This document shows, piece after piece, positions 10,444-40,393 of a stretch of DNA of 40,393 bases. Source of the DNA: Orenia marismortui DSM 5156. GTDB lineage: Bacteria > Bacillota > Halanaerobiia > Halobacteroidales > Halobacteroidaceae. Position 1 is the stretch's first letter. The number at the start of each line of letters is the position of its first letter. The notes under the pieces are model-generated. The model saw nothing but the letters and a program-made list of their open reading frames with translations, did no database searches and was not told the DNA's origin. A program made the translations under genes and the position numbers. The stretch is from positions 1,276,972 through 1,317,364 of the forward strand of contig NZ_KB900617.1 in NCBI RefSeq assembly GCF_000379025.1, in the 5' to 3' direction.

Positions 10444-11698
10444 ATGAGAATTGCAATATAAAATGCACGTTTTTTTCTAAAACACTTATACCCCATATAA
10501 TATAAACTTTTAAGCTACTTTTAATTTATTTTCAAAAACTTCATTCGAAGTTTTAAAATCAAACATCTTTCTTGGGTAGTTATTCATCCATTGTTGAATA
10601 TTTTTAATCTCACTCGTACTAATATCTTTAAAACTGCTTCCTTTTGGCAAAAACCTTCTAATCATCTTATTTAAATTTTCATTACTACCTCTTTGCCAAG
10701 AACAATAGGCATCAGCATAGTAATGATTAGTTCTTGGTATATTACTTCCTGTAAATGAAGTCTCTATTCCTTCATAATCATAAAATTCCCGCCCGTTGTC
10801 TGTTGTTATCGTCTTAAATAACTCTCTAAACCTTCTTACACCTATTCTTCTTTCAATTCGATCTAATCCATTTATAACTGCTTCTTGAGTCTTATTAGAT
10901 ATTTTTTCTATTATCTCTTTTCGACTATATCTTTCTGTTAAAACTAGTAAGAATGGCTCTCCTTTTCCTTTTTTACCTTCTACTAAGTCCATTTCCCAAT
11001 GACCTAACTCTGTTCTTTTATTAGCTTCCTCAGATCTATCTGATATCCTTCTGCCATCTTTTCTCCTCTTAGTTGATTCCTTTTCTTGTCTTTTAGTACC
11101 TTTAGACTTTTTATAATTACCATAGACTAACTCATCTCTATTTACCATCAAGATACCTTTGTCTATATAATTGTATATTGTTTTCCAATGTAGCTTAATT
11201 TCAAATTTTTCATCTTCCTGTATTTGATTAGCAATTACTTCTGGAGACCATTTATCTTGTTTTATTTTTCTTTCTATAAATCTTGCTAACTCATGTTCCT
11301 TAGCTATTTTTATCTTAGTTCCTTTAGCTGTAGCATTTTTATCATAGACTTTTTGCGCTATTTCAGCATCATATTCTATTCTTGTCGTATAATCAGAATT
11401 TAATAATTTTAATTCACCTTTCTTAAGCTCTCTACTTATTGTTGTTCTATGTTTTCCTAACTCTTTTGCTATCTCCTTATCTTTCTTACCTTGAATATTA
11501 TATAAATGCTCTATTATTTTCCTATCTTCCAAAGTTAGGTGTTTTCCTTTTTTACTTTTTCTGTTATAATTATTTTGACACATATTTTAATACCTCACTT
11601 TATGTTATTTGTGGTTATTTAACATTATATATGAGGTATTTCTATGTGTCACTTTTTATTTTTTGATCTACTTGTGCATTTAATTATACAATGCTCCT
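10444..11698 (-). mobile_element. Complete IS30-family element (copy 2)
   Basis: About 1255 bp. The ends are imperfect 25-bp inverted repeats (19 of 25 match; left end begins ATGAGAATTGCA, right end reads inward AGGAGCATTGTA). A direct repeat AAAAAAGCAAA flanks it (10433-10443 and 11699-11709), consistent with target duplication, though the AT-rich context blurs the exact length. The right 491 bp is near-identical to window positions 1-491, so this element has been recently active in the genome. Confidence 0.85.
10510..11583 (-). CDS. IS30-family transposase
   Basis: A 357-aa DDE transposase. The N-terminal HTH (residues ~10-60, LTLEDRKIIEHLYNIQGKKDKEIAKELG) binds the element ends. The integrase catalytic core carries D in HWEMDLVEG, D in TTDNGREF and E in RGSNENLNK. 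It is full length and without frameshift, so probably functional. It fills nearly the whole element, as usual for this family. It shares the family but is clearly different from the transposase at 11826-12875. The element lies between tRNA-Ser genes and the serS operon. Confidence 0.95.
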   Translation of the reverse strand: MCQNNYNRKSKKGKHLTLEDRKIIEHLYNIQGKKDKEIAKELGKHRTTISRELKKGELKLLNSDYTTRIEYDAEIAQKVYDKNATAKGTKIKIAKEHELARFIERKIKQDKWSPEVIANQIQEDEKFEIKLHWKTIYNYIDKGILMVNRDELVYGNYKKSKGTKRQEKESTKRRKDGRRISDRSEEANKRTELGHWEMDLVEGKKGKGEPFLLVLTERYSRKEIIEKISNKTQEAVINGLDRIERRIGVRRFRELFKTITTDNGREFYDYEGIETSFTGSNIPRTNHYYADAYCSWQRGSNENLNKMIRRFLPKGSSFKDISTSEIKNIQQWMNNYPRKMFDFKTSNEVFENKLKVA

Positions 11699-11719
11699 AA
11701 AAAAGCAAAAATTAATAAA

Positions 11720-12927
11720 GCTTCATTGTAAAATCAAATTGAACAAAATAAAAATAGCCATAGGGCACCAAACTGTAATATAATTAAATCACCACAAAGT
11801 AACCAATTACAGGAGGGTGCACACTATGACTTACTTAAATGATACACCAAAATCCCGAAAAAATAAACACTTAAATGCTTATGAACGTGGTCAAATTGCA
11901 TTATTACATTCCGAAGGAATGAATCCAAATGCTATTGCAAAACGTTTAGGTAGAGCTTCTAATACGATTAGAAACGAGCTAAAACGTGGTACAGTTTCTC
12001 AAATTAAAGCTAATAAAAAGGTTATGGCTTATTATCCTGACACTGGTCAAAGAGTTTATGAATCTAATCGCAAAAATTGTGGTCCTAAGTTTAAGCTTTT
12101 ACAATGTGAATACTTTATTGACTATGTTGTGGAACAATTCTACCAAAAAGGACATTCTCTTGATGCTATATGTGGTGCAGCAAAACTTCATAATAAATTT
12201 TCAAAGTCAGAAATGGTGTCTACTAAGACGCTGTATAACTATGTTAACGCTGGATTATTGACAATCAAAAACATTGATTTACCCTTAAAGCTTAAACGCT
12301 CTTCAAAAACAAATCGTACTAAAAATAATAAAAAGAAGCTTGGTATAAGTATAGATCAACGCCCTGAAAGTATTAATAATCGTAGTGAGTTTGGTCACTG
12401 GGAAATTGACACTATGATAGGCAAAAAGACTAAAAATGAATCAGTTTTACTTACTATGACAGAACGTATGACTCGTAAAGAAATTATTCGTAAAATACCT
12501 GCCAAGACTGCTCAAGCAGTTCAAGATGCTATTTTAAAGCTCGTTAATGAAGCAGGAGATTGTTTTCCAAAAGTATTTAAAAGCTTCACTTGTGATAATG
12601 GCTCTGAGTTTGCTCAAATGTCATTTTTAGAGCAAATTAGTGATACTAAAGTATACTTTGCACATCCATATTCATCATGGGAAAGAGGAACTAATGAGCG
12701 TCATAATGGTCTTATAAGACGCTTTATCCCTAAAGGTAATAGTCTAAACCAATTCTCTATTGAATCTATTGCTAGAGTCCAAAACTGGTGCAATACTTTA
12801 CCAAGAAAAATCTTAGATTACCTAACCCCTGATGAAATATTTGAAGATAAATTAAAACAAATTCTTTATGACTAAATAACCAAATTATTACAGTTTGAAA
12901 ATGTTCAATTTATTATTGCAATTTAAG
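11720..12927 (+). mobile_element. Second, different IS30-family element
   Basis: The boundaries are inferred. AAAAATTAATAAA occurs as a direct repeat at 11707-11719 and 12928-12940. Just inside are related inverted ends sharing AAATTGAACA (11736-11745) and its complement TGTTCAATTT (12902-12911). A further 12-bp perfect inverted pair CAAACTGTAATA lies deeper (11769-11780; 12886-12897). Its left target repeat overlaps the right target repeat of copy 2, so the two insertions are side by side in opposite orientation. Confidence 0.7.
11826..12875 (+). CDS. IS30-family transposase (second type)
   Basis: About 349 aa; one of the few plus-strand genes here. The N-terminal HTH (LNAYERGQIALLHSEGMNPNAIAKRLGRASNTIRNELKRG) is followed by a DDE core: D in HWEIDTMIGKK, D in FTCDNGSEF, E in ERGTNERHNG. 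I chose ATG at 11826: AGGAGG at 11811-11816 is 9 bp away, whereas the in-frame GTG at 11817 directly abuts that site and cannot be used with it. The reading frame is intact. It differs from the 357-aa transposase in most positions, so it is a separate IS type. Confidence 0.93.
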   Translation: MTYLNDTPKSRKNKHLNAYERGQIALLHSEGMNPNAIAKRLGRASNTIRNELKRGTVSQIKANKKVMAYYPDTGQRVYESNRKNCGPKFKLLQCEYFIDYVVEQFYQKGHSLDAICGAAKLHNKFSKSEMVSTKTLYNYVNAGLLTIKNIDLPLKLKRSSKTNRTKNNKKKLGISIDQRPESINNRSEFGHWEIDTMIGKKTKNESVLLTMTERMTRKEIIRKIPAKTAQAVQDAILKLVNEAGDCFPKVFKSFTCDNGSEFAQMSFLEQISDTKVYFAHPYSSWERGTNERHNGLIRRFIPKGNSLNQFSIESIARVQNWCNTLPRKILDYLTPDEIFEDKLKQILYD

Positions 12928-29044: not shown

Positions 29045-29692
29045 CTAAATTTTTTTCAATTTATCAAGACTATTATTATCTCCCATTACAATTAAAGTAT
29101 CACCAGGATTAATCTTTACTTCTGCTCCTGGAGAAATATTTATCTCCCCATTGCTTTTTATTGCCATCACATTAACACCAAAACGACTTCTTAACTTTAA
29201 CTCGATTAAGGTTTTATGATACATATTTTCATCAGCTGCAATTTCCACAATACTATAATTAGGCGCCAGCTCTATATACTCCAAAACATTTGATGAAGTG
29301 AGATTATTAGCAATTCTTATTCCCATATCCCTTTCTGGATATACAATTCTGTCTGCACCAACCTTGCTTAATACCTTACCATGCAATCTATCTTGTGCCT
29401 TTACAACAACTGTTTTCACTCCTAATTCTTTTAACATTAAAGTAGTTAATATATTAGCATGAATATTCTCACCAATACTGACTATCCCAACATCAAAGTT
29501 ACTTACTCCCAAAGTTTTTAGAGCTTCTTCATCAGTAGCATCAGCTTCTACAGCGTGAGTTACTATACTACTAATTTCTTGTACCTTCTCCTCATCATTA
29601 TCAATAGCTAAAACATCATAATGTTTGTCTGCCAAAGTTTTAGCCAAACTATAACCAAAACGCCCCAAACCTACTACTATAAATTGTTTCAA
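29045..29692 (-). CDS. ktrA: Ktr potassium uptake regulatory subunit KtrA (paralogue 1)
   Basis: A 215-aa cytoplasmic RCK protein that forms the gating ring of the KtrB channel. The RCK_N Rossmann domain has the nucleotide loop VVGLGRFGYSLAKTL, then DNDEEKV and VEADATDEEAL. The C-terminal RCK_C domain (~135-215, SIVEIAADENMYHKTLIELKL) is the class of domain that binds c-di-AMP in Firmicutes KtrA. I set the start at a TTG (29692): GGAGGG lies 7 nt upstream, and this gives exactly the 215-aa length of the paralogue at 31341-31988. An in-frame TTG at 29707 overlaps that site. It directly follows ktrB. Confidence 0.93.
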   Translation of the reverse strand: MKQFIVVGLGRFGYSLAKTLADKHYDVLAIDNDEEKVQEISSIVTHAVEADATDEEALKTLGVSNFDVGIVSIGENIHANILTTLMLKELGVKTVVVKAQDRLHGKVLSKVGADRIVYPERDMGIRIANNLTSSNVLEYIELAPNYSIVEIAADENMYHKTLIELKLRSRFGVNVMAIKSNGEINISPGAEVKINPGDTLIVMGDNNSLDKLKKI

Positions 29693-29707
29693 AACACTCC
29701 CTCCCAA

Positions 29708-31099
29708 TTATCCAATCAATATCTTCTCTTCAGGATATCTAACTTTATTACTTCGTTCTCTTTCTCCAAGAGCCATAGCTAAAGTTAAAGGACCTACGCG
29801 ACCAGTAAACATTATAATTGTTATTAAAATTCTACCTATAGTACTTAAGTCTCCAGTAATTCCTGTGGATAAACCTACAGTAGCATAGGCTGATACTGTT
29901 TCAAAAAATATTTCTATAAATTTAAAATTTTCAGTTATTGTCAAAATTAATGTAGCCAATATAATAACCAATAAAGAAACTATCGTTACTGCTAAAGCCT
30001 TATAAACAGTAATCTGAGATAGCCTTCTTCTAAATAATTCTGCATCATCTTTTCCTCTCACTAAAGAATAAGTAGCAACAATTAATACTCCAATGGTAGT
30101 AGTCTTCAGCCCACCACCAGTAGATCCTGGTGAAGCACCAATAAACATCAAAATGATAATTAAAAATAAACTCCCTTGCGTTAAGTCACCAATTGCTATT
30201 GTATTAAAACCGGCTGTTCTTGGTGTAACTCCTTGAAAATAAGCAGATATAAATCTATCCTCTAAAGCCAATTGACCAAAAGTATTTTGATTAGGAGATT
30301 CTAATAAAAAAATACCAATGCTTCCAATGAGAATCAAAATTATAGTAGTTAGCAAAACCAATTTACTGTTTAAAGATAGAGTAACAAACCTTCTTTTCTC
30401 ATAAAGGTCAGCTATAACAGCAAAACCAAGACCTCCGAGAATAAACAAAGTGGTGATTATTATATTTACATAATAGTTTCCAACAAAATTCTCTAAGCTA
30501 TTACTAAAGAGAGCAAAACCTGCATTACAAAAAGCAGAAATAGCATGAAAAACAGAAAAATAAATTGCTTTAGAAATAGGTAATGTATTTTTAAATTTTA
30601 AAAAAAGTAACAAAGCCCCTGTGAACTCAATTCCCAAAGTTAGAGCAATAACATATCTAGCCAGTTTAATAACACCAGATAGAGTAAAATGATTAAGTTC
30701 TTCTCTAATAATTATTCTTTCTCTAAAACTAATTTTTCTTCCTAATAATAAGGCAAATAAAGTAGATGTAGTCATAAATCCAAACCCACCAATTTGAATT
30801 AAAACTAAAACTACTATTTGACCAAAAATAGTTAAATAAGTAGCTGTATCAACTACAATTAAACCAGTTACTGCTGTTGCTGATGTAGCAGTAAATAAAG
30901 CATCTACTACACTTAATCCTCTACCATCTACAGTAGTAATTGGTAAAGTTAATAAAAAAGTTCCTACACTAATAACTAATACATAGCCTATAGTCAAAAA
31001 TCGTGCTGGAGTTAATGATTTTATATTAGAAAGAATAGTATTCACCTCCAGATAATATATAAACCTACATAACTTAATATTACCCGGATATAAATACAT
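29708..31099 (-). CDS. ktrB: Ktr potassium uptake channel subunit KtrB (paralogue 1)
   Basis: Integral membrane channel of the SKT superfamily with four M1-P-M2 repeats. The selectivity-filter glycines are visible in order: SATAVTGLIV, SAFCNAGFAL, TPRTAGFNT and SAYATVGLSTG; GASPGSTGGG precedes the intramembrane gate loop. The N-terminus is uncertain. The open frame begins with ATG at 31099 but has no good ribosome-binding site there, while GGAGG (31045-31049) lies inside, 8 nt before an ATT codon (31036). Starting at 31036 would align the N-terminus with paralogue 2 (…NIHNLTPAQ vs NIKSLTPAR). No ydaO riboswitch is found in front of it. Confidence 0.9.
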   Translation of the reverse strand: MYLYPGNIKLCRFIYYLEVNTILSNIKSLTPARFLTIGYVLVISVGTFLLTLPITTVDGRGLSVVDALFTATSATAVTGLIVVDTATYLTIFGQIVVLVLIQIGGFGFMTTSTLFALLLGRKISFRERIIIREELNHFTLSGVIKLARYVIALTLGIEFTGALLLFLKFKNTLPISKAIYFSVFHAISAFCNAGFALFSNSLENFVGNYYVNIIITTLFILGGLGFAVIADLYEKRRFVTLSLNSKLVLLTTIILILIGSIGIFLLESPNQNTFGQLALEDRFISAYFQGVTPRTAGFNTIAIGDLTQGSLFLIIILMFIGASPGSTGGGLKTTTIGVLIVATYSLVRGKDDAELFRRRLSQITVYKALAVTIVSLLVIILATLILTITENFKFIEIFFETVSAYATVGLSTGITGDLSTIGRILITIIMFTGRVGPLTLAMALGERERSNKVRYPEEKILIG

Positions 31100-31154
31100 T
31101 ATAACTTTATTATAAAATTATTTTCGAGATAAAAGTGTCTAATAGAAAAATATT

Positions 31155-31238
31155 GCGACAGTTTCGGAGTTAGGCGTTAGGAGATAGGATATAGAAAGAT
31201 CTTACTAACTCCTATGACCTAGCACCTAAAAGTGTCGC
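31155..31238. repeat. 84-bp inverted-repeat element between ktrA and ktrB
   Basis: Ends GCGACAGTTT and AAAGTGTCGC are inverted copies with one mismatch in ten; GGAGTTAG/CTAACTCC and TAGGAGATAGG/CCTATGACCTA add inner pairing. There is no ORF. It could be a small non-autonomous mobile or processed RNA element. Confidence 0.55.
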
Positions 31239-31305
31239 ATTATACTCATATTACAATACTCCTATTTCACCTTATAAAAAAATAACCTTGTTTATTTGAT
31301 AATAT

Positions 31306-31341
31306 GAAAAAACTGACCAACAAATGTTGGTCAGTTTTTTC
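31306..31341 (-). terminator. Terminator of ktrB2-ktrA2
   Basis: A 17-bp perfect stem (GAAAAAACTGACCAACA with its complement) and AA loop, with a T-run on both strands. It starts at the ktrA2 stop codon, separating the two ktr pairs. Confidence 0.9.
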
Positions 31342-31988
31342 TAATATTCTTTTAACCGTCTTAAACCATCTTCATGACCCATTACAACTAAAATATCTCC
31401 TGAGTTAATCTTATCAGTTGCTTCTGGAGATACGTTTACTTCCTCTTCATTCTTAATTGCTATAACATTGATTCCAAATTTTCCTCTTAAATTTGATTCA
31501 TTCAAGGTCTTGCCAGCAAATTTTTCAGATGCTGCCACCTCAGCAATACTATATCCTGGAGATAATTCAATATAATCTAAAACTTTAGCAGAGACTAAGT
31601 TATTAGCAACCCTAACCCCCATATCTCTTTCAGGGTAAACAACTTTATCAGCTCCAACTTTACTTAATAACTTGCCATGCAATTTATCTTGTGCCTTAAC
31701 AACAACATACTTAACTCCTAATTCTTTTAAGATTAAGGTAGTTAATATATTAGCATGAATATTTTCTCCAATACTAACAATAGCTATATCAAAGTTACTT
31801 ACTCCTAAAGTCTTCATAGTATCTTCATCTGTTGCATCAGCCTTAACAGCATGAGTAACTTCAGTACTAATCTCCTGCACTTTTTCTTCAGCAGAATCAA
31901 TAGCTAATACATCATAACCTTTACTGGCTAATGTAGTAGCTACACTTGAACCAAAACGCCCTAAGCCTACAACTATAAACTGTTTCAT
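31341..31988 (-). CDS. ktrA: Ktr potassium uptake regulatory subunit KtrA (paralogue 2)
   Basis: A 215-aa RCK protein with the same layout as paralogue 1: nucleotide loop VVGLGRFGSSVATTL, DSAEEKV, VKADATDEDTM, then the RCK_C domain (~135-215). The two KtrA proteins agree over long stretches (for example ENIHANILTTL, LSKVGAD, VYPERDMG), so the cassettes arose by duplication. ATG is preceded by GGGAGGAAA. The gene lies 15 bp after ktrB2 and shares its riboswitch-controlled transcript. RCK_C of this family can bind c-di-AMP, so this pair may be under control by the same second messenger at RNA and protein level (inference). Confidence 0.95.
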   Translation of the reverse strand: MKQFIVVGLGRFGSSVATTLASKGYDVLAIDSAEEKVQEISTEVTHAVKADATDEDTMKTLGVSNFDIAIVSIGENIHANILTTLILKELGVKYVVVKAQDKLHGKLLSKVGADKVVYPERDMGVRVANNLVSAKVLDYIELSPGYSIAEVAASEKFAGKTLNESNLRGKFGINVIAIKNEEEVNVSPEATDKINSGDILVVMGHEDGLRRLKEY

Positions 31989-32003
31989 CTCTATATTTCC
32001 TCC

Positions 32004-33338
32004 CTATCCAACCAATATCTTCTCTTTTGGATATCTAATATTTGCTTTATTTTTACGCTCCCCAATAGCCACAGCAATAGTAAGAGGTCCTACCCTACCA
32101 GCAAACATAGTAAGAATAATTAAAATTCTACCTACAACTGATAAACCACCTGTTACCCCAGTAGATAAACCTACTGTACCAAAGGCAGAAACTGCTTCAA
32201 AGAATAAATCTAAAAATTCAGCATCTTCAGTTATAGTTAAGACCATAGTTACTGTTACAACTAATAATAATGCAATCAAAACTATTGATAGAGCATTATA
32301 GATGATATCCTTACCCAATCTTCTCTTATAAATCTCAATATCTTCTCTCCCTGTTGCTCTAGCATATAAAACAGCACCCAAAGCACCAAAAGTAGTTGTT
32401 TTAACCCCACCACCTGTTGATCCCGGTGAAGCACCAATAAACATCAGAATAATTGTAAAGAATATTGTAGAACTATTTAATGCACCTGTAGGCACTGTAT
32501 TAAATCCAGCAGTACGTGGAGTAATAGCTAAGAAATAAGAAGCAATAGTCTTCTCTCCTAATGATAAATTACCTATAGTAGCTGGATTAGAATATTCTAA
32601 AACAAAAGAAACAATTGTCCCTACTATAATTAAAATTAATGTTACACTTAACACAAGTTTTGTATGCAATGAAAAGTTTTTAAAGCTTCTTTTAGAGTAA
32701 ACTTCAGCAATTACAGCAAATCCAATACCACCCAAAATAATTAGAGTTGTAATTACAAAGTTAACTGTAATATCACCAGTAAAGTTTTCTAAACTGTTAC
32801 CAAAAATATCAAACCCAGCATTATTAAAGGCAGATACCGAGTGAAAAATACCAAAATATAATGCTTTTCCTAAAGGCATATCTTTTAAAAATCGTAAGAA
32901 TAAAATAAAAGCCCCTGTTCCTTCAATAGCAAAAGTAACACCTAAGACATACTTTACGATTCTAATAACCCCTGATAATTGAAATTGATCTAAATCTTGT
33001 TGAATAATTAATCTTTCTCTAAGAGTTATCTTCTTTCCTAATAATAAAGCAAATAGGGTAGACATAGTCATAATACCTAAGCCACCTATTTGAATTAAGC
33101 ACAAGATAACAATTTGTCCAAACACAGTAAAGAAAGTACTAGTGTTCTCTACTATTAATCCTGTTACTGCTGTAGCAGATGTAGATGTAAAGATAGCATC
33201 TAATAAATTCATCCCTTGACCATCAGTTGTGGCTATAGGCAAAGTTAATAAAATTGCCCCTAATAAAATCACAACTAAATAACCTATTGATAGTATCTGT
33301 GCTGGAGTTAAATTGTGAATATTAAACTTATTTTTCAT
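32004..33338 (-). CDS. ktrB: Ktr potassium uptake channel subunit KtrB (paralogue 2)
   Basis: A 444-aa SKT-type membrane channel with four M1-P-M2 units. Filter segments are SATAVTGLIV, SAFNNAGFD, TPRTAGFNT and SAFGTVGLSTG, with GASPGSTGGG as in paralogue 1. The translocation is K+ driven by membrane potential, often Na+-coupled in Ktr. The start ATG is well supported by AAGTGAGGTG upstream. The gene is preceded by a ydaO-type c-di-AMP riboswitch with terminator, the classical arrangement for ktr genes in Firmicutes. Confidence 0.95.
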   Translation of the reverse strand: MKNKFNIHNLTPAQILSIGYLVVILLGAILLTLPIATTDGQGMNLLDAIFTSTSATAVTGLIVENTSTFFTVFGQIVILCLIQIGGLGIMTMSTLFALLLGKKITLRERLIIQQDLDQFQLSGVIRIVKYVLGVTFAIEGTGAFILFLRFLKDMPLGKALYFGIFHSVSAFNNAGFDIFGNSLENFTGDITVNFVITTLIILGGIGFAVIAEVYSKRSFKNFSLHTKLVLSVTLILIIVGTIVSFVLEYSNPATIGNLSLGEKTIASYFLAITPRTAGFNTVPTGALNSSTIFFTIILMFIGASPGSTGGGVKTTTFGALGAVLYARATGREDIEIYKRRLGKDIIYNALSIVLIALLLVVTVTMVLTITEDAEFLDLFFEAVSAFGTVGLSTGVTGGLSVVGRILIILTMFAGRVGPLTIAVAIGERKNKANIRYPKEKILVG

Positions 33339-33359: not shown

Positions 33360-33530
33360 AAAAAAGACACAGGATACCTATATACCTGTGACTGGTCTCC
33401 TTTTTAACGCTGACGAAGTTAGCTGTCGGATTCGGATCAAAAAAGTTAACCCTATTAACATAAATGCTAGTTTATATTAAATTCACCCCAAAAAAATGGT
33501 TCCTCCGCTCTTTATAGATTAAGCGATTAC
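33360..33530 (-). promoter_or_regulatory. c-di-AMP riboswitch (ydaO/yuaA class) of ktrB2A2
   Basis: Minus-strand conserved blocks: TAATCGCTTAATCT, GAGCGGAGGAACC, TTTTTGGGGTGAAT, GGGTTAAC, TCCGAATCCGACAGCTAAC and TTCGTCAGCG. A hairpin (CACAGG...CCTGTG, 33367-33389) followed by TCTTTTTT is the expression platform. High c-di-AMP would stop transcription of ktrBA; that is the known action of the class. Confidence 0.93.
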
Positions 33531-33550
33531 ATAATTAAATTATGTTGTTT

Positions 33551-33727: not shown

Positions 33728-35215
33728 TTAATTCACTCTTTTACTATTAACCATATATCTGGCATCTTTTAGCATCTTAGCTATAGCAAAGAAAATCACT
33801 AAAAATTCTAACCTTCCTAAGAACATTCCTATTGTCTGCGTCCATAAGATTAATACTGGAGCATCAGGACTAGTAATCCCTATAGATAAACCAACAGTTC
33901 CTAAAGAAGAAGCAAATTCAAACATAGATTCTGCTAAACCATATCCATGAGCTAAATAAACTAGGATTCCAATAAAATAAGTAACCATATATAAATATAT
34001 ATAATTTGCTGTCTCACGAATATATTCTGCTTTAATATATAATTTCTGTTCTCCTCTCCAAATATAGTTCTCTACAACAGAATTTGGAGGCAAGAAATAT
34101 CCTTTTAACTCCCACCAAACTGACTTTATCATTAAATAAATTCTATATAACTTAATACCACCTGCCGTAGACCCTGTACCTCCACCAATCCACATCAATA
34201 AAATCATAGCTAAGATACCAAATTGATTCCAATTGCTGAATACATCTAAAGAAAATCCTGTAGTAGAAATAGCAGAAACCACTTCAAAGAATCCCCGTCT
34301 AACTGTAGCAGGCAAACTTGTATATAAGCTACCTAAAGAAAAATAACTGATAATTGGAGTAAAGATAGCAATAATAAATAACAGCAATCTAATCTCACCA
34401 TTTTTGAAAAAGACTTTGAACTTTCCTTTTAACAATGCAAAGTGAGTAGCAAAGTTAATTGTTCCCAAAATCATCAATAACCAAGTTACCATCTCTATAG
34501 GAAGACTATTCCAATGGCCAATACTGTCAACTTTTGTAGAAAAACCTCCTGTCGATAATGCTGGAATAGCATGATTAATAGCATCAAAGACTCCCATTCC
34601 TGCTATAATATATAGAATAGTCCCTCCAATAATATATCCAAAATAAATATACATAATAGCCTTAGTTGACTTCTTAACGTGAGGTAATAATTGATCACTT
34701 CTACCTTCTGCATTATATAAGCCAAAACCATAAGGATGCAATACAGAAGATAACATAACAACTATTAGTCCTACCCCTCCAAAGAATTGCATAATACTTC
34801 TCCACATCAAAAAAACATGGGAAGCTTTTGTTACATCAACCACTGATAAACCTGTTGTTGTCCAGCCACTGGTAGCTTCAAAGATGGCTTGAGTAAAGTT
34901 CAACTCCCCTGTTATCATAAAAGGTAAAGCAGAAGCTACAATAGCTATAACCCAAGATATTAATACTATAATCCCCCCCTCTTTCAAAGAAAGAGTAACC
35001 TCATCTTCAACAGAGGTTAATTTCCACAGTAGAAATCCAATGCCAAAGAATATAGCAGCTGGAATCAAAAATGCCTTTATATAAACTATCTCTTCGGGGT
35101 AGAATGGTAGTACTAACAACGGCAATAATAAAAAACCACTAACTGCCATTGTTAATATCCCAATATATTTTGTTATTAACTTATACCGTTCTTTAATGAT
35201 GCTTTTATATCTCAT
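33728..35215 (-). CDS. trkH: Trk potassium uptake membrane subunit TrkH
   Basis: A 495-aa SKT-type channel, longer than KtrB because of the extra N-terminal membrane helices of TrkH. Four filter segments: TSGWTTTGLSV, PALSTGGFST, SAISTTGFSLD and SSLGTVGLSIG. GGGTGSTAGGIKLYR forms the conserved intramembrane loop region. It is the last gene of a six-gene operon that starts with a histidine kinase, and 18 bp after the longer TrkA. No terminator is obvious behind it before the ktr promoter. Protein sequence clearly separates it from the two KtrBs. Confidence 0.95.
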   Translation of the reverse strand: MRYKSIIKERYKLITKYIGILTMAVSGFLLLPLLVLPFYPEEIVYIKAFLIPAAIFFGIGFLLWKLTSVEDEVTLSLKEGGIIVLISWVIAIVASALPFMITGELNFTQAIFEATSGWTTTGLSVVDVTKASHVFLMWRSIMQFFGGVGLIVVMLSSVLHPYGFGLYNAEGRSDQLLPHVKKSTKAIMYIYFGYIIGGTILYIIAGMGVFDAINHAIPALSTGGFSTKVDSIGHWNSLPIEMVTWLLMILGTINFATHFALLKGKFKVFFKNGEIRLLLFIIAIFTPIISYFSLGSLYTSLPATVRRGFFEVVSAISTTGFSLDVFSNWNQFGILAMILLMWIGGGTGSTAGGIKLYRIYLMIKSVWWELKGYFLPPNSVVENYIWRGEQKLYIKAEYIRETANYIYLYMVTYFIGILVYLAHGYGLAESMFEFASSLGTVGLSIGITSPDAPVLILWTQTIGMFLGRLEFLVIFFAIAKMLKDARYMVNSKRVN

Positions 35216-35233
35216 CTTAAATTCCTCCGATTC

Positions 35234-35893
35234 TTACTCACCAGATAATGCAGCAAAAGCTTCTCCTTGCTTTTCTGGTAAAGTAATAATTAATACCTTA
35301 TCTCCCTCTAATAATTTTGTATCACCTTTAGGAATTACTACATCCTCTCCTCTAATAATACAACCAAAAACTATATCTCTTGGAAGATTAACCTCCTTTA
35401 AAGTCTTACCTAATACTGGTGAGCTTTCTTGTAAAATAACCTGAGAAATATTAATTCTACCCTCTTCAATTGATAATAAGTTGTTGACATCTGCTACCTC
35501 AACTCTCTGCTCAATCAATAATGAAATTAATTTTGTTGTATTAAAGATAGTCTCTACTCCTAATTCTTTAAATATCTTTTCATTATCCGGGTTATTAACA
35601 ACAGAGAAAGTCCTAGGTACACCAAACTCCTTTTGGGCTAATTGACAGATAAATAAATTATTTGGATCATTTCCTGTTAATGATAAAATAGCATCAGCTT
35701 TATTAGCTTCTGCCTCTTCTAAGGAACTTGGCTTAGAAGCATCACCATTAATCACCAAACAATTCAGCTCTCTTGCTAGAGTTTTACAATAATCTTTATC
35801 TTTATTTATTACAGAAATTTGATAGCCCTTAGCTAAAAAGTTTTTAGCTAAGTAATAAATTACCTTTCCCCCACCAACCATTATAATCCGCAT
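35234..35893 (-). CDS. trkA: TrkA-type K+ channel regulatory protein (RCK_N plus RCK_C)
   Basis: A 219-aa cytoplasmic RCK protein: a Rossmann domain with IIMVGGGKVIYYLAK and INGDASKPSSLEEA (1-~130), then TrkA_C (~135-219, ISQVILQESSPVLGKTLKEVNLP...GDKVLIITLP). Classical TrkA (~458 aa) contains two RCK units in one chain; here the role appears shared by this protein and the 132-aa protein 14 bp upstream. It sits directly before trkH, its presumed channel. The nucleotide loop is GGGKVI rather than GxGxxG with a small third residue, so ligand preference may differ from KtrA. Confidence 0.9.
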   Translation of the reverse strand: MRIIMVGGGKVIYYLAKNFLAKGYQISVINKDKDYCKTLARELNCLVINGDASKPSSLEEAEANKADAILSLTGNDPNNLFICQLAQKEFGVPRTFSVVNNPDNEKIFKELGVETIFNTTKLISLLIEQRVEVADVNNLLSIEEGRINISQVILQESSPVLGKTLKEVNLPRDIVFGCIIRGEDVVIPKGDTKLLEGDKVLIITLPEKQGEAFAALSGE

Positions 35894-35907
35894 AGAAATT
35901 TCACCTC

Positions 35908-36306
35908 TTATCCAATAATCTCTTTCTTAAATTTATCTACTAATAAATTTGTAGGACTCATTGTAATTACATTTAGATCTTTATAGATTACCTCTTTTTC
36001 TGGATCTAATAACCTAACCATTACTTTTGGAACTTTATATAGTTCGCTAGCAATTTGAGCAATCATAGCATTGACATTATCGTCATTAGTAGTAATTACA
36101 ACTACATCAGCTTTATCAATTTTAGCCGACTTTAATATCTCTATTTCAGTAGCATCCCCATTAATTGTAAAACCAGTAAATTCGGCTGATAGTCTTTTAA
36201 AAGATGTAGAACTTTTATCTATTACTACAACATCCTCACCTGATTTTGATAACTGATTAGCTAAATAAGAACCACTTCTACCACAACCCATAACTAAAAC
36301 ATACAT
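35908..36306 (-). CDS. TrkA-N only protein (single RCK_N domain)
   Basis: A 132-aa Rossmann-fold protein with nucleotide loop VMGCGRSGSYLANQL, VIDKSSTSF and INGDATEIEILKSA; it ends after the RCK_N dimerisation segment (NLLVDKFKKEIIG). It has no TrkA_C domain; the stop is clean and the next gene has its own ribosome-binding site, so this looks like a real short form rather than a frameshifted gene. It likely forms mixed rings with the 219-aa protein to gate TrkH; inference from gene order. It begins 3 bp after the TPR response regulator. Confidence 0.88.
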   Translation of the reverse strand: MYVLVMGCGRSGSYLANQLSKSGEDVVVIDKSSTSFKRLSAEFTGFTINGDATEIEILKSAKIDKADVVVITTNDDNVNAMIAQIASELYKVPKVMVRLLDPEKEVIYKDLNVITMSPTNLLVDKFKKEIIG

Positions 36307-36309
36307 ATT

Positions 36310-36999
36310 CTACTCTCCTTCCACTTCTTTCTCTCCTAAATTAATATCTTCTTTTTGATAATCAAATTGAGTACTTCTTTCAAGATTATCTTGAGCAGGT
36401 TGATAAGAAGGATCTAAAGCTAAAGCTGCCCGATATTTCTTCTGGGCTTCTAAAAGTTTATCTTGCAATTCCAAAATCCCCCCCATTAGATTAAAGGCTT
36501 CAGGTTTATCTGCATCTAAACTCACTGCTTTTTGAAGATAGTCATAACCCTTCTTAAAATCACGCTTGGTAATAGCTGATTTCGCATAACTTAAATATTC
36601 TTCATAACTACTTAACTCCTCTTTAGATGCTTCTAAGTTTGTTCTGTTTATTACCTCCTTAACTATCTCTCTAATTTCATCAGGAGCAAAGGGTTTTCTT
36701 AAATAATCTATAGCTCCCAATTTCATAGTTTCTACAGCAGTTTCTATCGTTCCAAAACCTGTAATCATAATAGTATTGATATTATTATCTAATTCCTTAA
36801 GCTGTTTTAAAACTTCAATACCATTAATTCCTGGCAATTTCATATCTAATAACACTAAGTCAAAGTTATCTGCTTGAAATTTATCTAAACCATCTTCTCC
36901 ATTTACAGCTGTTACTACTTCATAGTCCTGATTTAAACATTGTTTTAAAGTAATCCTAATATTCTTTTCATCATCGATAATTAAAATCTTCTTATTCAT
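36310..36999 (-). CDS. Response regulator with receiver domain and C-terminal TPR repeats
   Basis: A 229-aa protein. Residues 1-~122 form a receiver domain with phospho-acceptor Asp52 (LVLLDMKLPGINGIEVL), acidic pair DDE and switch residues MITGFG and LRKPF. Residues ~133-205 resemble two TPR repeats (AKSAITKRDFKKGYDYLQKAVSLDADKPEAF; MGGILELQDKLLEAQKKYRAALALDPSYQPA), followed by an acidic tail. There is no DNA-binding, enzymatic or sigma-54 domain, so the output is probably protein binding. The position between the kinase/receiver pair and the TrkA genes suggests it connects the kinase to Trk gating; this is a hypothesis. Confidence 0.88.
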   Translation of the reverse strand: MNKKILIIDDEKNIRITLKQCLNQDYEVVTAVNGEDGLDKFQADNFDLVLLDMKLPGINGIEVLKQLKELDNNINTIMITGFGTIETAVETMKLGAIDYLRKPFAPDEIREIVKEVINRTNLEASKEELSSYEEYLSYAKSAITKRDFKKGYDYLQKAVSLDADKPEAFNLMGGILELQDKLLEAQKKYRAALALDPSYQPAQDNLERSTQFDYQKEDINLGEKEVEGE

Positions 37000-37025
37000 T
37001 TAAACCTCTCCTTTATAATTCTAAT

Positions 37026-37394
37026 TTATAAATAACCCTTAATCTTATCTAATAATTTACTTGGTTCAATAGGCTTGATAATATAATCATCAGCTCCTAA
37101 ATCATAAGCCTTTTTAATATTTTCTTCTTCTGCAATAGCACTTAACATTAAGATTGGTATATTACTTGTGGACTCATCTTTTTTTAACGTTTCACAAACT
37201 AAAAAACCATTCATTTTAGGAATCTTTATATCTAATAAAATTAAATCTGGATTCCAATCAAAAGTTAAATCTACTGCATCAACTCCATTAGATACTACTT
37301 TAACTTCATATCCTGCATTACTTAAACAAATCTTAAGAACAGTTATAATATTCTTACTATCTTCAACAACTAATATTTTATTCAATCTATTCAC
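37026..37394 (-). CDS. Single-domain response regulator (CheY-like receiver)
   Basis: A 122-aa receiver domain only: Asp55 in LILLDIKIPKMNG, acidic pair VVEDS, PILMLSA and the conserved Lys in YIIKPIEP. There is no output domain. The start is either GTG at 37394 or TTG at 37385; AGTAGGTG lies 5-6 nt before the TTG, which favours the shorter protein. It abuts the histidine kinase stop with no spacer, so it is the obvious phospho-acceptor of that kinase. It may act as a phosphate sink or shuttle to the TPR response regulator, or by direct protein contact; the sequence does not decide. Confidence 0.9.
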   Translation of the reverse strand: MNRLNKILVVEDSKNIITVLKICLSNAGYEVKVVSNGVDAVDLTFDWNPDLILLDIKIPKMNGFLVCETLKKDESTSNIPILMLSAIAEEENIKKAYDLGADDYIIKPIEPSKLLDKIKGYL

Positions 37395-39239
37395 CTACTT
37401 TGGTAATTTAAGAGTAAAAGTAAAACTTGTTCCTTTACCAAGCTCACTTTCAACCCAGATTCTTCCTCCATGAGCCTCTATCATTTCTTTAGAAATTGCT
37501 AATCCTAATCCAGATCCAGTATCTTTATCTTTATCCCCACCAACTCTTACAAATTTATCAAAAATTTTATGTTGATATTCCTTAGGAATTCCTGCTCCTG
37601 TATCACTTACAGAAAGATGAACCTTATGACCTTTCTTTTCTGCAGAAAGTTTTATTTGGTCACCTTTTTTAGTATAACGCAATGCATTACCAATCAAATT
37701 AGTAATAACCCAAGTTATTTTGTTAAAATCAGCATAAACTGCCATTCCCTTGGTCTCTTCCGCTATCAAATCTACCCCTTTATTTTTAGATTGCTCAATA
37801 AATGGCTTTATTGAGGCTGTGAATACTTTTTCCACTTGAATATTTGCAAACTCTAGATTTATCTCACCTGACTCTATCTTTGATAAATCTAACAGGTCAT
37901 CTACCAAATTATTTAAACGCTCACAATCTTCTTTAGCCACTTCCAATAATTCTTTCTGATTATCATTTATATCACCAATATTCTCTTCCAATAACATTCC
38001 AATTCCCATATTCATCGAAGTTAAAGGGGTTCTAAATTCATGAGATACCATAGAAACAAATTCAGACTTCATTTCATCAACTTCTTTAAGATGGGTAATA
38101 TCATCAAGTAAGGTTACTACTAATTTACTTTCTCCTTCTTTATTTTTAACAGGAGTACTAGTAACTCTAAAGAAAATCTCTTTATTGTCTTTTTCAAAGT
38201 TAATTACTTTGCTATCTTTACCAGTCTGCTCTGAACCTGAACTTAAAGTTTCACGAATCACAGAAAAAATTCGTTCATCTTTAATAGTTTCTAAAAAGTG
38301 ATTATTTGATACTCTGCTCTCATCTAATGAAAATAACTTTTCTGCTCTAGGATTAATTAGTAGCACCCTATTCTCATCATCAGTAACTAATAAAGGATTA
38401 GAGATACTCTTTACAATAGCTTCAGACTTATTCTTCTCTGCAATTAATTTAGAAACATTCATCTCTTCATATTCTCTTAATCGCTGCGTCATACTATTAA
38501 ACTCTTGAGCTAACTTCCCAATTTCATCTTTAGTCTCAATTTCAATAATCTGTTCTAAATCTCCATCTGCAACCTCTTGAACTATTTCTGTTAACCTTTT
38601 AGTAGGTCTAATAATCAAATTAGAAATATAAATTCCTAATATTATCGCTAATATGACAGCCATTATAGAAAAAACTATCGTAGAATAGATTGCCTGACTT
38701 GCATTATTATTAGCTCTCTGCTGCGATTCTTTCATATGTTCTTGGTTGACCAATAGTAACCTTCTAGTTTCTTTTTTAACTTTGTTAAATTGGGGCATAA
38801 TCTCCTCTAAATAGTAGTTTTGAACTTCTTTAAAATTATTTCGGCTAGAAAATTGCCGTAATTTCCAAAAATTTTCTAAATAAAGCTGATAATCTTGATT
38901 AATATTTTGGATTATCTCTTCTTCTTGAGGAATTGTAATATTATCTTCAGCTCTTGATAAAGACTTCATAAATTCCATTTGATTATCTTGGAAAATATCT
39001 AAAGCCTTATCCTCTTGCCCAAATATGAAGATCAATTCTGCACTATCTTGTCTTTCAAGAGACTCTACCATCTTTTCAGCAGCAATAACACTTTGATAAT
39101 TTTCTACCATAATATCATGTATTGCTTGATTTAGAGTTATGAAATTGCTAATAGACCATAATGCTACCCCAATAGTAATTAAAATTATGACTATGTATCC
39201 CAATAGTATTTTAGTCTTTAAACTTAGATTTCGAATCAT
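37395..39239 (-). CDS. Membrane sensor histidine kinase (4-helix sensor, HAMP, PAS, HisKA, HATPase)
   Basis: A 614-aa kinase at the head of the Trk operon. TM1 (~11-33), an extracytoplasmic mostly helical sensor region (~34-183), TM2 (~184-207), HAMP (~207-258, RPTKRLTEIVQEVADGDLEQ), coiled coil, PAS (~270-385), HisKA with phospho-acceptor His400 (MVSHEFRTPLTSMNMG), and HATPase with N-box NLIGNALRYTKKG, G1 DTGAGIP and G2 GSGLGLAISKEM. The helical periplasmic-type sensor lacks a recognisable ligand pocket, so turgor, osmolarity or membrane state are possible inputs. ATG is preceded by GGGGGGA. It is followed without a gap by its receiver and then by the trk genes. Confidence 0.93.
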   Translation of the reverse strand: MIRNLSLKTKILLGYIVIILITIGVALWSISNFITLNQAIHDIMVENYQSVIAAEKMVESLERQDSAELIFIFGQEDKALDIFQDNQMEFMKSLSRAEDNITIPQEEEIIQNINQDYQLYLENFWKLRQFSSRNNFKEVQNYYLEEIMPQFNKVKKETRRLLLVNQEHMKESQQRANNNASQAIYSTIVFSIMAVILAIILGIYISNLIIRPTKRLTEIVQEVADGDLEQIIEIETKDEIGKLAQEFNSMTQRLREYEEMNVSKLIAEKNKSEAIVKSISNPLLVTDDENRVLLINPRAEKLFSLDESRVSNNHFLETIKDERIFSVIRETLSSGSEQTGKDSKVINFEKDNKEIFFRVTSTPVKNKEGESKLVVTLLDDITHLKEVDEMKSEFVSMVSHEFRTPLTSMNMGIGMLLEENIGDINDNQKELLEVAKEDCERLNNLVDDLLDLSKIESGEINLEFANIQVEKVFTASIKPFIEQSKNKGVDLIAEETKGMAVYADFNKITWVITNLIGNALRYTKKGDQIKLSAEKKGHKVHLSVSDTGAGIPKEYQHKIFDKFVRVGGDKDKDTGSGLGLAISKEMIEAHGGRIWVESELGKGTSFTFTLKLPK

Positions 39240-39392
39240 TTCATCCCCCCATTTCTTTATTCTTTACTAGTCTAAATAAATTTATTGCTAAAGAACAACT
39301 TGAGCCATGACCCACTTTAGTAACTGGCAATTAGTAAGTAATAGTAAACTCAAAAGCTATAACTTATCCTTAATCTCAATTCCTTAATAATA
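39240..39392 (-). other. Leader region of the kinase-Trk operon, no clear promoter
   Basis: The stretch between the group II intron and the kinase gene shows no clear sigma-A promoter or riboswitch. It contains TTAGTAACTGGCAATTAGTAAG (39325-39344 region), a weak match to the intergenic repeat words. Confidence 0.4.
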
Positions 39393-40393
39393 AAGTAGGA
39401 CCACAGCCTCACGGCTGGGACCCCTTGTCAAACTGTACGTACGGTTTTCCCGTATACAGCTTTCGGTTATTGGTGCTCCTTATCAGAGAGTAAGTCTTCG
39501 ACTCTATGTTACCATAGATGTATATTTTACCCTTAATTAGAGCACATCAGTAAGTAATGATTGAAGTCCTTTATCTCTTAGATAACTATTTGAAAAGCGA
39601 TAATTTTGATACATTATCGCCTTTTTCTTTTCGATAAACGAACGCATTCTCATTCTAATCCATTTATCCAACCTCGTAAACAAAGTCTTCACATTTCCTA
39701 TCTTGAAATAGTTACCCCAACCTCTCAAAACTGGATTTAATTTTGCAATTATTACTTCTACAGGAAAAGGTCTAGTTCTTCTAGTAATCTTTCTTACTTT
39801 GTTTTTGAATTTTGTTATTGCTTTATCTTTAGGTCTCTTGTATTCAGAATGGTGAAATTTGAATCCTAGAAATTCAAATCCATCATAAAAGTTAGTTACT
39901 ACCGTCTTACGAGGATGAAGTTTCAACTTCAATTCATCCTCTATAATTTTACGGGTAACTTTTAACGCTCTCTTTGCTTTGCGCTTATTTTTAGTTAAGA
40001 TTACAAAGTCGTCAGCAAAGCGGACTATTTTGTAACCTCGACGAGTCATTTTCTTATCAAAGTAATGTAAATAGATATTAGCTAATAGAGGAGAGATGAC
40101 ACCTCCTTGAGGTGTCCCTTCTCTAGTTTCTTCTCTACCTTCTTCAGTCATAACTCCAATTGTCAGCCATGACCTGATAATATCTAATACCCAACCATCA
40201 CTTATATATTCCGCTATAAAATCCATTAATAACTCATGGTCTATAGTATCAAAATAAGATTTAATGTCTGCGTCTACCACCCAGTAGTAACCTTGTTCTT
40301 TATATTTCTCTATCTTTTCTATCGCATCGTGAGCAGACCTATTAGGTCTGAAACCAAAGGAACATTCACAAAATTCTCGCTCAAAGTATATTT
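39393..40393 (-). mobile_element. Group II intron, 3' part (cut by window edge)
   Basis: A reverse transcriptase ORF is followed on the minus strand by a domain V hairpin (39429-39464; AAAGCTGTATACGGG, AAAA loop, CCGTACGTACAGTTT) and a domain VI-like helix (CCCAGCCGTGAGGCTG, about 39403-39420), ending near ...GTCCTACTT at ~39393. Domains I-IV 5' parts and the 5' splice site are outside the window. It has the same orientation as the kinase-Trk operon, about 150 bp upstream of it. Confidence 0.88.
39537..40393 (-). CDS. ltrA: Group II intron reverse transcriptase/maturase, N-terminally cut by window edge
   Basis: The frame is open through the right window edge; reading on past the apparent ATG gives FEREFCECSFGFRPNRSAHDA, a hallmark of group II intron RTs, so the true start is outside. 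RT motifs: VVDADIKSYFDTIDH, GTPQGGVISPLLANIYL, and catalytic FADDFVILTK (F in place of the common Y). The maturase (X) domain follows (LNPVLRGWGNYFKIGN...RLDKWIRMRMRSFI). The protein ends soon after at LLTDVL with no HNH endonuclease motif visible, so retrohoming would be of the En-minus type. It is intact in the part seen. It supports splicing and mobility of its own intron. Confidence 0.93.
   Translation of the reverse strand, partial: IYFEREFCECSFGFRPNRSAHDAIEKIEKYKEQGYYWVVDADIKSYFDTIDHELLMDFIAEYISDGWVLDIIRSWLTIGVMTEEGREETREGTPQGGVISPLLANIYLHYFDKKMTRRGYKIVRFADDFVILTKNKRKAKRALKVTRKIIEDELKLKLHPRKTVVTNFYDGFEFLGFKFHHSEYKRPKDKAITKFKNKVRKITRRTRPFPVEVIIAKLNPVLRGWGNYFKIGNVKTLFTRLDKWIRMRMRSFIEKKKAIMYQNYRFSNSYLRDKGLQSLLTDVL

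Follow-up and report, generated by a model that had tools for sequence, protein, structure and literature searches.

KdpDE is, by role, the closest known system to the locus described here, which lies in a 40,393-nucleotide stretch of the genome of Orenia marismortui DSM 5156 (the window) and encodes a sensor histidine kinase (HK), a stand-alone receiver (REC), a response regulator in which a receiver is joined to tetratricopeptide repeats (REC/TPR), two TrkA proteins, and a TrkH channel subunit. In both systems, a kinase and a receiver are encoded with a K+ importer. The first-pass annotation of this DNA contrasted the two on the ground that known K+ two-component systems act on transcription. 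That contrast needs correction, since KdpD also inhibits KdpFABC through serine phosphorylation (PMC11018627), so that there is already one known case in which a sensor kinase controls a K+ importer post-translationally. In Deinococcus, where KdpD is split, the regulator binds DNA (PMC5716572). The locus differs from KdpDE in other respects. By Pfam, neither a KdpD (PF02702) nor a Usp domain is present in its kinase, and its regulator carries TPR and no OmpR-type DNA-binding domain (PF00486). Also, KdpD works through a serine kinase in its own N-terminus and not via a response regulator.

Fast control of Trk-type channels has been attributed to nucleotides and cyclic di-AMP (c-di-AMP), and no two-component input is known, or was found in the literature searched, for Trk, Ktr, Kup, or KimA. 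Like the locus, TrkAH of Vibrio parahaemolyticus and Escherichia coli has a TrkH-type channel with an RCK regulator, but its TrkA is a single chain under nucleotide regulation, and no two-component system dedicated to it is known. TM1088A and TM1088B, found with the TrkH protein TM1089, make up the two-subunit TrkA of Thermotoga maritima (PDB 3L4B, PMC4380455); the paper describing them mentions no kinase or response regulator. RssB, PhyR, and CheY belong to a class of receivers that lack a DNA-binding domain and act by protein contact, whereas in the present locus the output consists of two TPR hairpins and is associated with K+ importers. The stand-alone REC fits the CheY type, in which a single receiver is the only regulator, but the conserved regulator of the locus has TPR. 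Finally, the riboswitch of the c-di-AMP K+ regulon (ydaO/yuaA; kdpFABC in B. thuringiensis, PMC6488665) is also found upstream of the operon in relatives; the locus would add a second, phosphorylation-based layer of control. No description of the system was found in the open-access papers searched.

We favor the reading that HK and REC/TPR constitute a two-component system that serves K+ uptake specifically and whose output binds protein and not DNA, and we assign it a probability of roughly 0.55. The direct observations are gene order and its conservation, domains, intact phosphorylation sites, a riboswitch, and repeated pairing with different importers. All six open reading frames lie head to tail on the minus strand, as listed here in the order HK to TrkH:

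37395..39239, minus strand: sensor histidine kinase (HK), 614 amino acids, with 4HB sensor, HAMP, PAS, HisKA, and HATPase_c (Pfam)
37026..37394, minus strand: stand-alone REC, 122 amino acids, Asp55, Response_reg only (Pfam)
36310..36999, minus strand: REC/TPR response regulator, 229 amino acids, Asp52, with a receiver, two TPR hairpins, and a capping helix
35908..36306, minus strand: short TrkA of the TM1088A type, 132 amino acids, TrkA_N (RCK_N) only (Pfam)
35234..35893, minus strand: TrkA of the TM1088B type, 219 amino acids, TrkA_N and TrkA_C (Pfam)
33728..35215, minus strand: TrkH K+ channel subunit, 495 amino acids, TrkH (PF02386; Pfam)

The gaps between them are 0, 26, 3, 14, and 18 bp in this order. 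At the gene level, TrkH (PF02386) with a TrkA/RCK regulator makes the last genes a Trk K+ uptake system, and RCK_N-only and RCK_N-RCK_C subunits encoded side by side make its TrkA a two-subunit one. The 132-residue TrkA matches TM1088A with an E value of 9.5e-33 and the 219-residue TrkA matches TM1088B at 1.4e-51. No DNA-binding or enzymatic domain was found by Pfam in either regulator. Coordinates, Pfam, and alignments thus bear out the order, the gaps of 0 to 26 bp, the domains, and the missing output domains that had been read from the window at first pass.

The kinase has the H-box His of HisKA and a HATPase_c domain, and the receivers have the acid pair, Asp, Thr/Ser, and Lys, as expected of a two-component system. 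His400 of HK, Asp55 of REC, and Asp52 of REC/TPR are present and invariant in alignments of relatives, and the other phosphorylation residues are likewise intact and invariant. The sensor of HK is an extracytoplasmic four-helix (4HB) domain, for which no sequence match was found among solved structures. A signature in it, ENYxSxxAAExM...ERQDS...RAxDNxTxxGE, is common to 34 kinases from every genomic context, suggesting that the input is probably the same everywhere.

In REC/TPR, Pfam finds Response_reg, with TPR_2 and TPR_11 scoring just under its cut-offs, and engineered consensus TPR proteins align with residues 140-206. An AlphaFold2 model built from an alignment of 20 relatives places the receiver at 1-119, TPR hairpins at 132-161 and 166-195, and a cap helix at 200-217, with confidence (pLDDT) of about 93-96 across the hairpins. 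By sequence match and model, the TPR part is real. Comparison with PDB structures barely probed the TPR part, since the match list was filled by receiver domains. The signature PEAFNLLGV...YRAALxLDPxYxPAxxNL is kept in every context, and other TPR proteins score far lower: with a TPR-only model tested on 20 genomes, members mostly scored above 90 bits and other TPR proteins below about 55. No named family for a two-hairpin TPR output was found in Pfam, NCBIfam, or the literature searched. The conserved non-structural residues E167, N170, E177, N205, and R208 largely occupy helix A of the TPR or the cap, positions that in TPR proteins generally point toward the ligand. In the model, these residues of the second hairpin and cap are the obvious candidates for contact.

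Within the Halanaerobiia, a full-length REC/TPR relative is present in 33 of 61 genomes, and at 31 of these 33 loci HK, REC, REC/TPR, short TrkA, TrkA, and TrkH follow in identical order. The short TrkA (at least 178 bits; the next-best score is 94) is confined to the 31 operon-bearing genomes of the 61 and is present in all of them. In several relatives, KtrB-KtrA stands directly before HK or after TrkH. The two exceptions (L054 and L055) keep REC/TPR beside an amino-acid-permease/Usp transporter, and in L053, the closest to them, a complete operon has the same type of transporter as its last gene. This protein of about 770 residues repeatedly adjoins REC/TPR, TrkH, or KtrA in the Halanaerobiia (L053 4755-7091; L054 11175-13018; L055 10950-13298; L048 3803-6109) and is a candidate K+ importer of an unstudied type.

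The genomes of 85,000 species were scanned with the REC/TPR alignment. By record name, relatives are found in Planctomycetota, Chloroflexota, Deltaproteobacteria, Aminicenantes, Gaiellales, and cyanobacteria, as well as in Mcinerneyibacterium, Fermentithermobacillus, and Rhodothermota/Bacteroidota. HK and REC/TPR adjoining a split TrkA and TrkH recur in many other phyla. The order seen in O. marismortui is, therefore, not confined to its genome, and chance clustering of the six genes is ruled out by the order kept in Halanaerobiia together with the core kept across many phyla. A K+ importer stands beside the REC/TPR relative at 41 of 47 loci outside the Halanaerobiia: Trk at 31, Ktr and/or Kup at 5, kdp at 3, and KimA or a KimA-like permease at 2. 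Most of the 6 loci with no K+ gene are on short contigs or end there. KdpA, KdpC, KdpF, short KdpD, full KdpD, and Kup were checked by Pfam, and the KimA partners by match to PDB 6s3k (L086, E 1.7e-58; L179, E 1.6e-7). A TrkA fusion in L154 was rejected, the extension of the reading frame being an artefact. A sodium/hydrogen exchanger beside L095 was not counted as a partner, as it is on the opposite strand with genes between. The recurrent pairing with importers, together with Pfam, supports the earlier proposal that this two-component system is devoted to K+ uptake and that its regulators have no DNA-binding domain.

The partner type has switched several times. When 57 REC/TPR proteins are arranged in a tree, Trk is the most frequent partner to either side of the root, and by the starred branches Ktr must have been placed at least twice independently, as must Kdp. 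At a cyanobacterial locus (L173, 6203-11352) the unit lies inside a kdp operon, in the order kdpA-kdpB-kdpF-kdpC-REC-REC/TPR-HK-short kdpD; this arrangement may supply the kinase partner that is missing from short-KdpD systems. Relatives consisting of TPR only, with no receiver, are found directly before kdpABC-kdpD-kdpE (L175, 8963-9286) and, at L183 (8399-8977), with an OmpR-type regulator on one side and Trk genes on the other, which links TPR itself to transport.

Bacillota-type operons account for most occurrences of the stand-alone REC, which is largely missing outside Bacillota. The phosphorelay proposed at first pass is thus doubtful and, since most loci outside Bacillota have no REC, a relay through it is ruled out as a general scheme. 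Judged from this gene content, transfer from HK to REC/TPR is probably direct.

We infer the sensed cue, the post-translational output, and the partner of TPR as follows. The four-helix sensor would read an extracytoplasmic cue related to K+, turgor, or salt, and the kinase would hand its phosphate to REC/TPR, with the stand-alone REC of Bacillota-type operons probably serving as competitor, sink, or relay. Phosphorylation would switch what the two-hairpin TPR binds, and the switched binding would alter the activity of the adjoining K+ importers, here TrkH with the two-subunit TrkA ring. The amount of protein would be set separately by the c-di-AMP riboswitch, giving a slow control by c-di-AMP and a fast one by the kinase. 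A broader version, which we offer tentatively and at less than even odds, is that the kinase and REC/TPR are an ancient pair for K+ (turgor) signaling, in which a phosphorylation-dependent TPR controls importers of any structural family without transcription and partners have been swapped among Trk, Ktr, Kup, KimA, and Kdp.

Several points weigh against a dedicated K+ system with a protein-binding output. Its sampled prevalence outside the Halanaerobiia is low: for each phylum, the TPR-only model was positive in at least 2 to 12 of some 300 genomes, or at least about 1-4%, with a few of the matches weak. These counts are a lower bound, since scoring was confined to the top 15-16 candidates of each genome. 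That a single TPR signature occurs next to importers of unrelated structure sits uneasily with the idea that it touches each of them directly. Also, the OmpR-type DNA-binding regulator (Pfam) that adjoins the TPR-only protein of L183 suggests that transcription can be part of related systems.

A c-di-AMP riboswitch (RF00379) is found upstream of HK, or of a ktrB-ktrA-HK run, at all 13 Halanaerobiia loci checked. In the genome of the window, it lies on another contig (C4:698-847); a terminator comes next, and after it what is apparently the 5' end of an intron of group II. The window itself ends within such an intron:

39390..40393, minus strand: 3' part of a group II intron, with domain V at 39390-39464 and a reverse transcriptase open reading frame at 39537-40280

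The 3' end of this part is 150 bp before HK, in sense orientation. Judging by where the contigs end and how the genes are ordered in relatives, we infer that the ends of C4 (C4:1-700) and of the window are one intron between the riboswitch and terminator and HK, with the contig break inside it. A relative of the same genus (L036) has the riboswitch and HK without such a gap.

The alternative that survives best is the version put forward at first pass, a special case of the favored reading: phosphorylated REC/TPR would bind the two-subunit TrkA (RCK) ring or TrkH and open or close the channel directly. The tight order of REC/TPR, short TrkA, TrkA, and TrkH, with gaps of 3-18 bp, is consistent with this, as is the short TrkA, which accompanies REC/TPR in 31 Halanaerobiia genomes and never occurs there without it. 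RCK proteins are present in Ktr contexts too, and TrkH/KtrB is still encoded in 13 of 14 genomes from a set of mostly non-Trk loci. However, the same TPR signature is found beside KimA (L086, L179), Kup (L176), and kdp (L173, L174, L175), all without an RCK ring, and a two-subunit TrkA is also present in Thermotoga (PMC4380455). Contact between TPR and the RCK ring as a general rule is weakened by the partners that lack the ring, and we consider direct gating unlikely, if still a serious contender.

Another explanation is that the output is transcriptional but indirect, with TPR sequestering or releasing a DNA-binding protein, sigma factor, or anti-sigma factor that sets importer expression. 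Regulators of the RssB or PhyR type act by sequestering or releasing such factors. This would account for one TPR signature with many unrelated importers, and sigma-54 or OmpR-type regulators apparently lie near L179 and L180 (both by length and receiver match only) and L183 (by Pfam). On the other hand, no transcription factor is conserved in the unit, the c-di-AMP riboswitch already explains expression in Halanaerobiia, and TPR-only relatives lie inside transporter operons. We regard it as improbable.

TPR could instead act on a common protein of K+/c-di-AMP homeostasis, such as a c-di-AMP cyclase or a Usp-like regulator, that controls all the importers. The single TPR signature across contexts and the riboswitch on the operon would agree with this, and c-di-AMP controls both Kdp expression and KdpD (PMC6488665, PMC11018627, PMC4686210). 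No cyclase or phosphodiesterase gene was recognized in the neighborhoods, where no targeted search was made, and we find this explanation distinctly improbable. It is very improbable that the genes are merely a co-expressed salt-stress cassette whose kinase and regulators act on another process: regulation does not follow from co-transcription alone, but the pair re-associates several times on the tree with different importer types across many phyla, and neither chance nor a shared riboswitch would track K+ importers so selectively.

Beyond TrkH, the next gene is ktrB, 389 bp downstream, and two tandem ktrA-ktrB pairs (29045-33338) follow the unit directly, the first behind a c-di-AMP riboswitch that likely marks the end of the six-gene unit:

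33393..33535, minus strand: c-di-AMP riboswitch heading the downstream ktrB-ktrA, 103 bits
32004..33338, minus strand: KtrB-type TrkH (Pfam)
31341..31988, minus strand: KtrA (Pfam)

The trk genes and the tandem ktr pairs thus place three TrkH-type proteins in a row. The genome has two other trk loci, and no similar kinase or receiver adjoins either. Elsewhere in the window (10510-12875), two IS30-like transposase open reading frames, recognized by eye, lie in opposite orientations near two tRNA genes.

What looks new here is a two-component system with a TPR output that accompanies K+ importers and has so far been unnamed. If the favored reading is true, bacteria would have a new way to sense K+ or turgor and react fast. 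A response regulator that lacks a DNA-binding domain would also gain a concrete output open to testing, and further K+ importers could be sought with the TPR and sensor signatures as a genomic marker.

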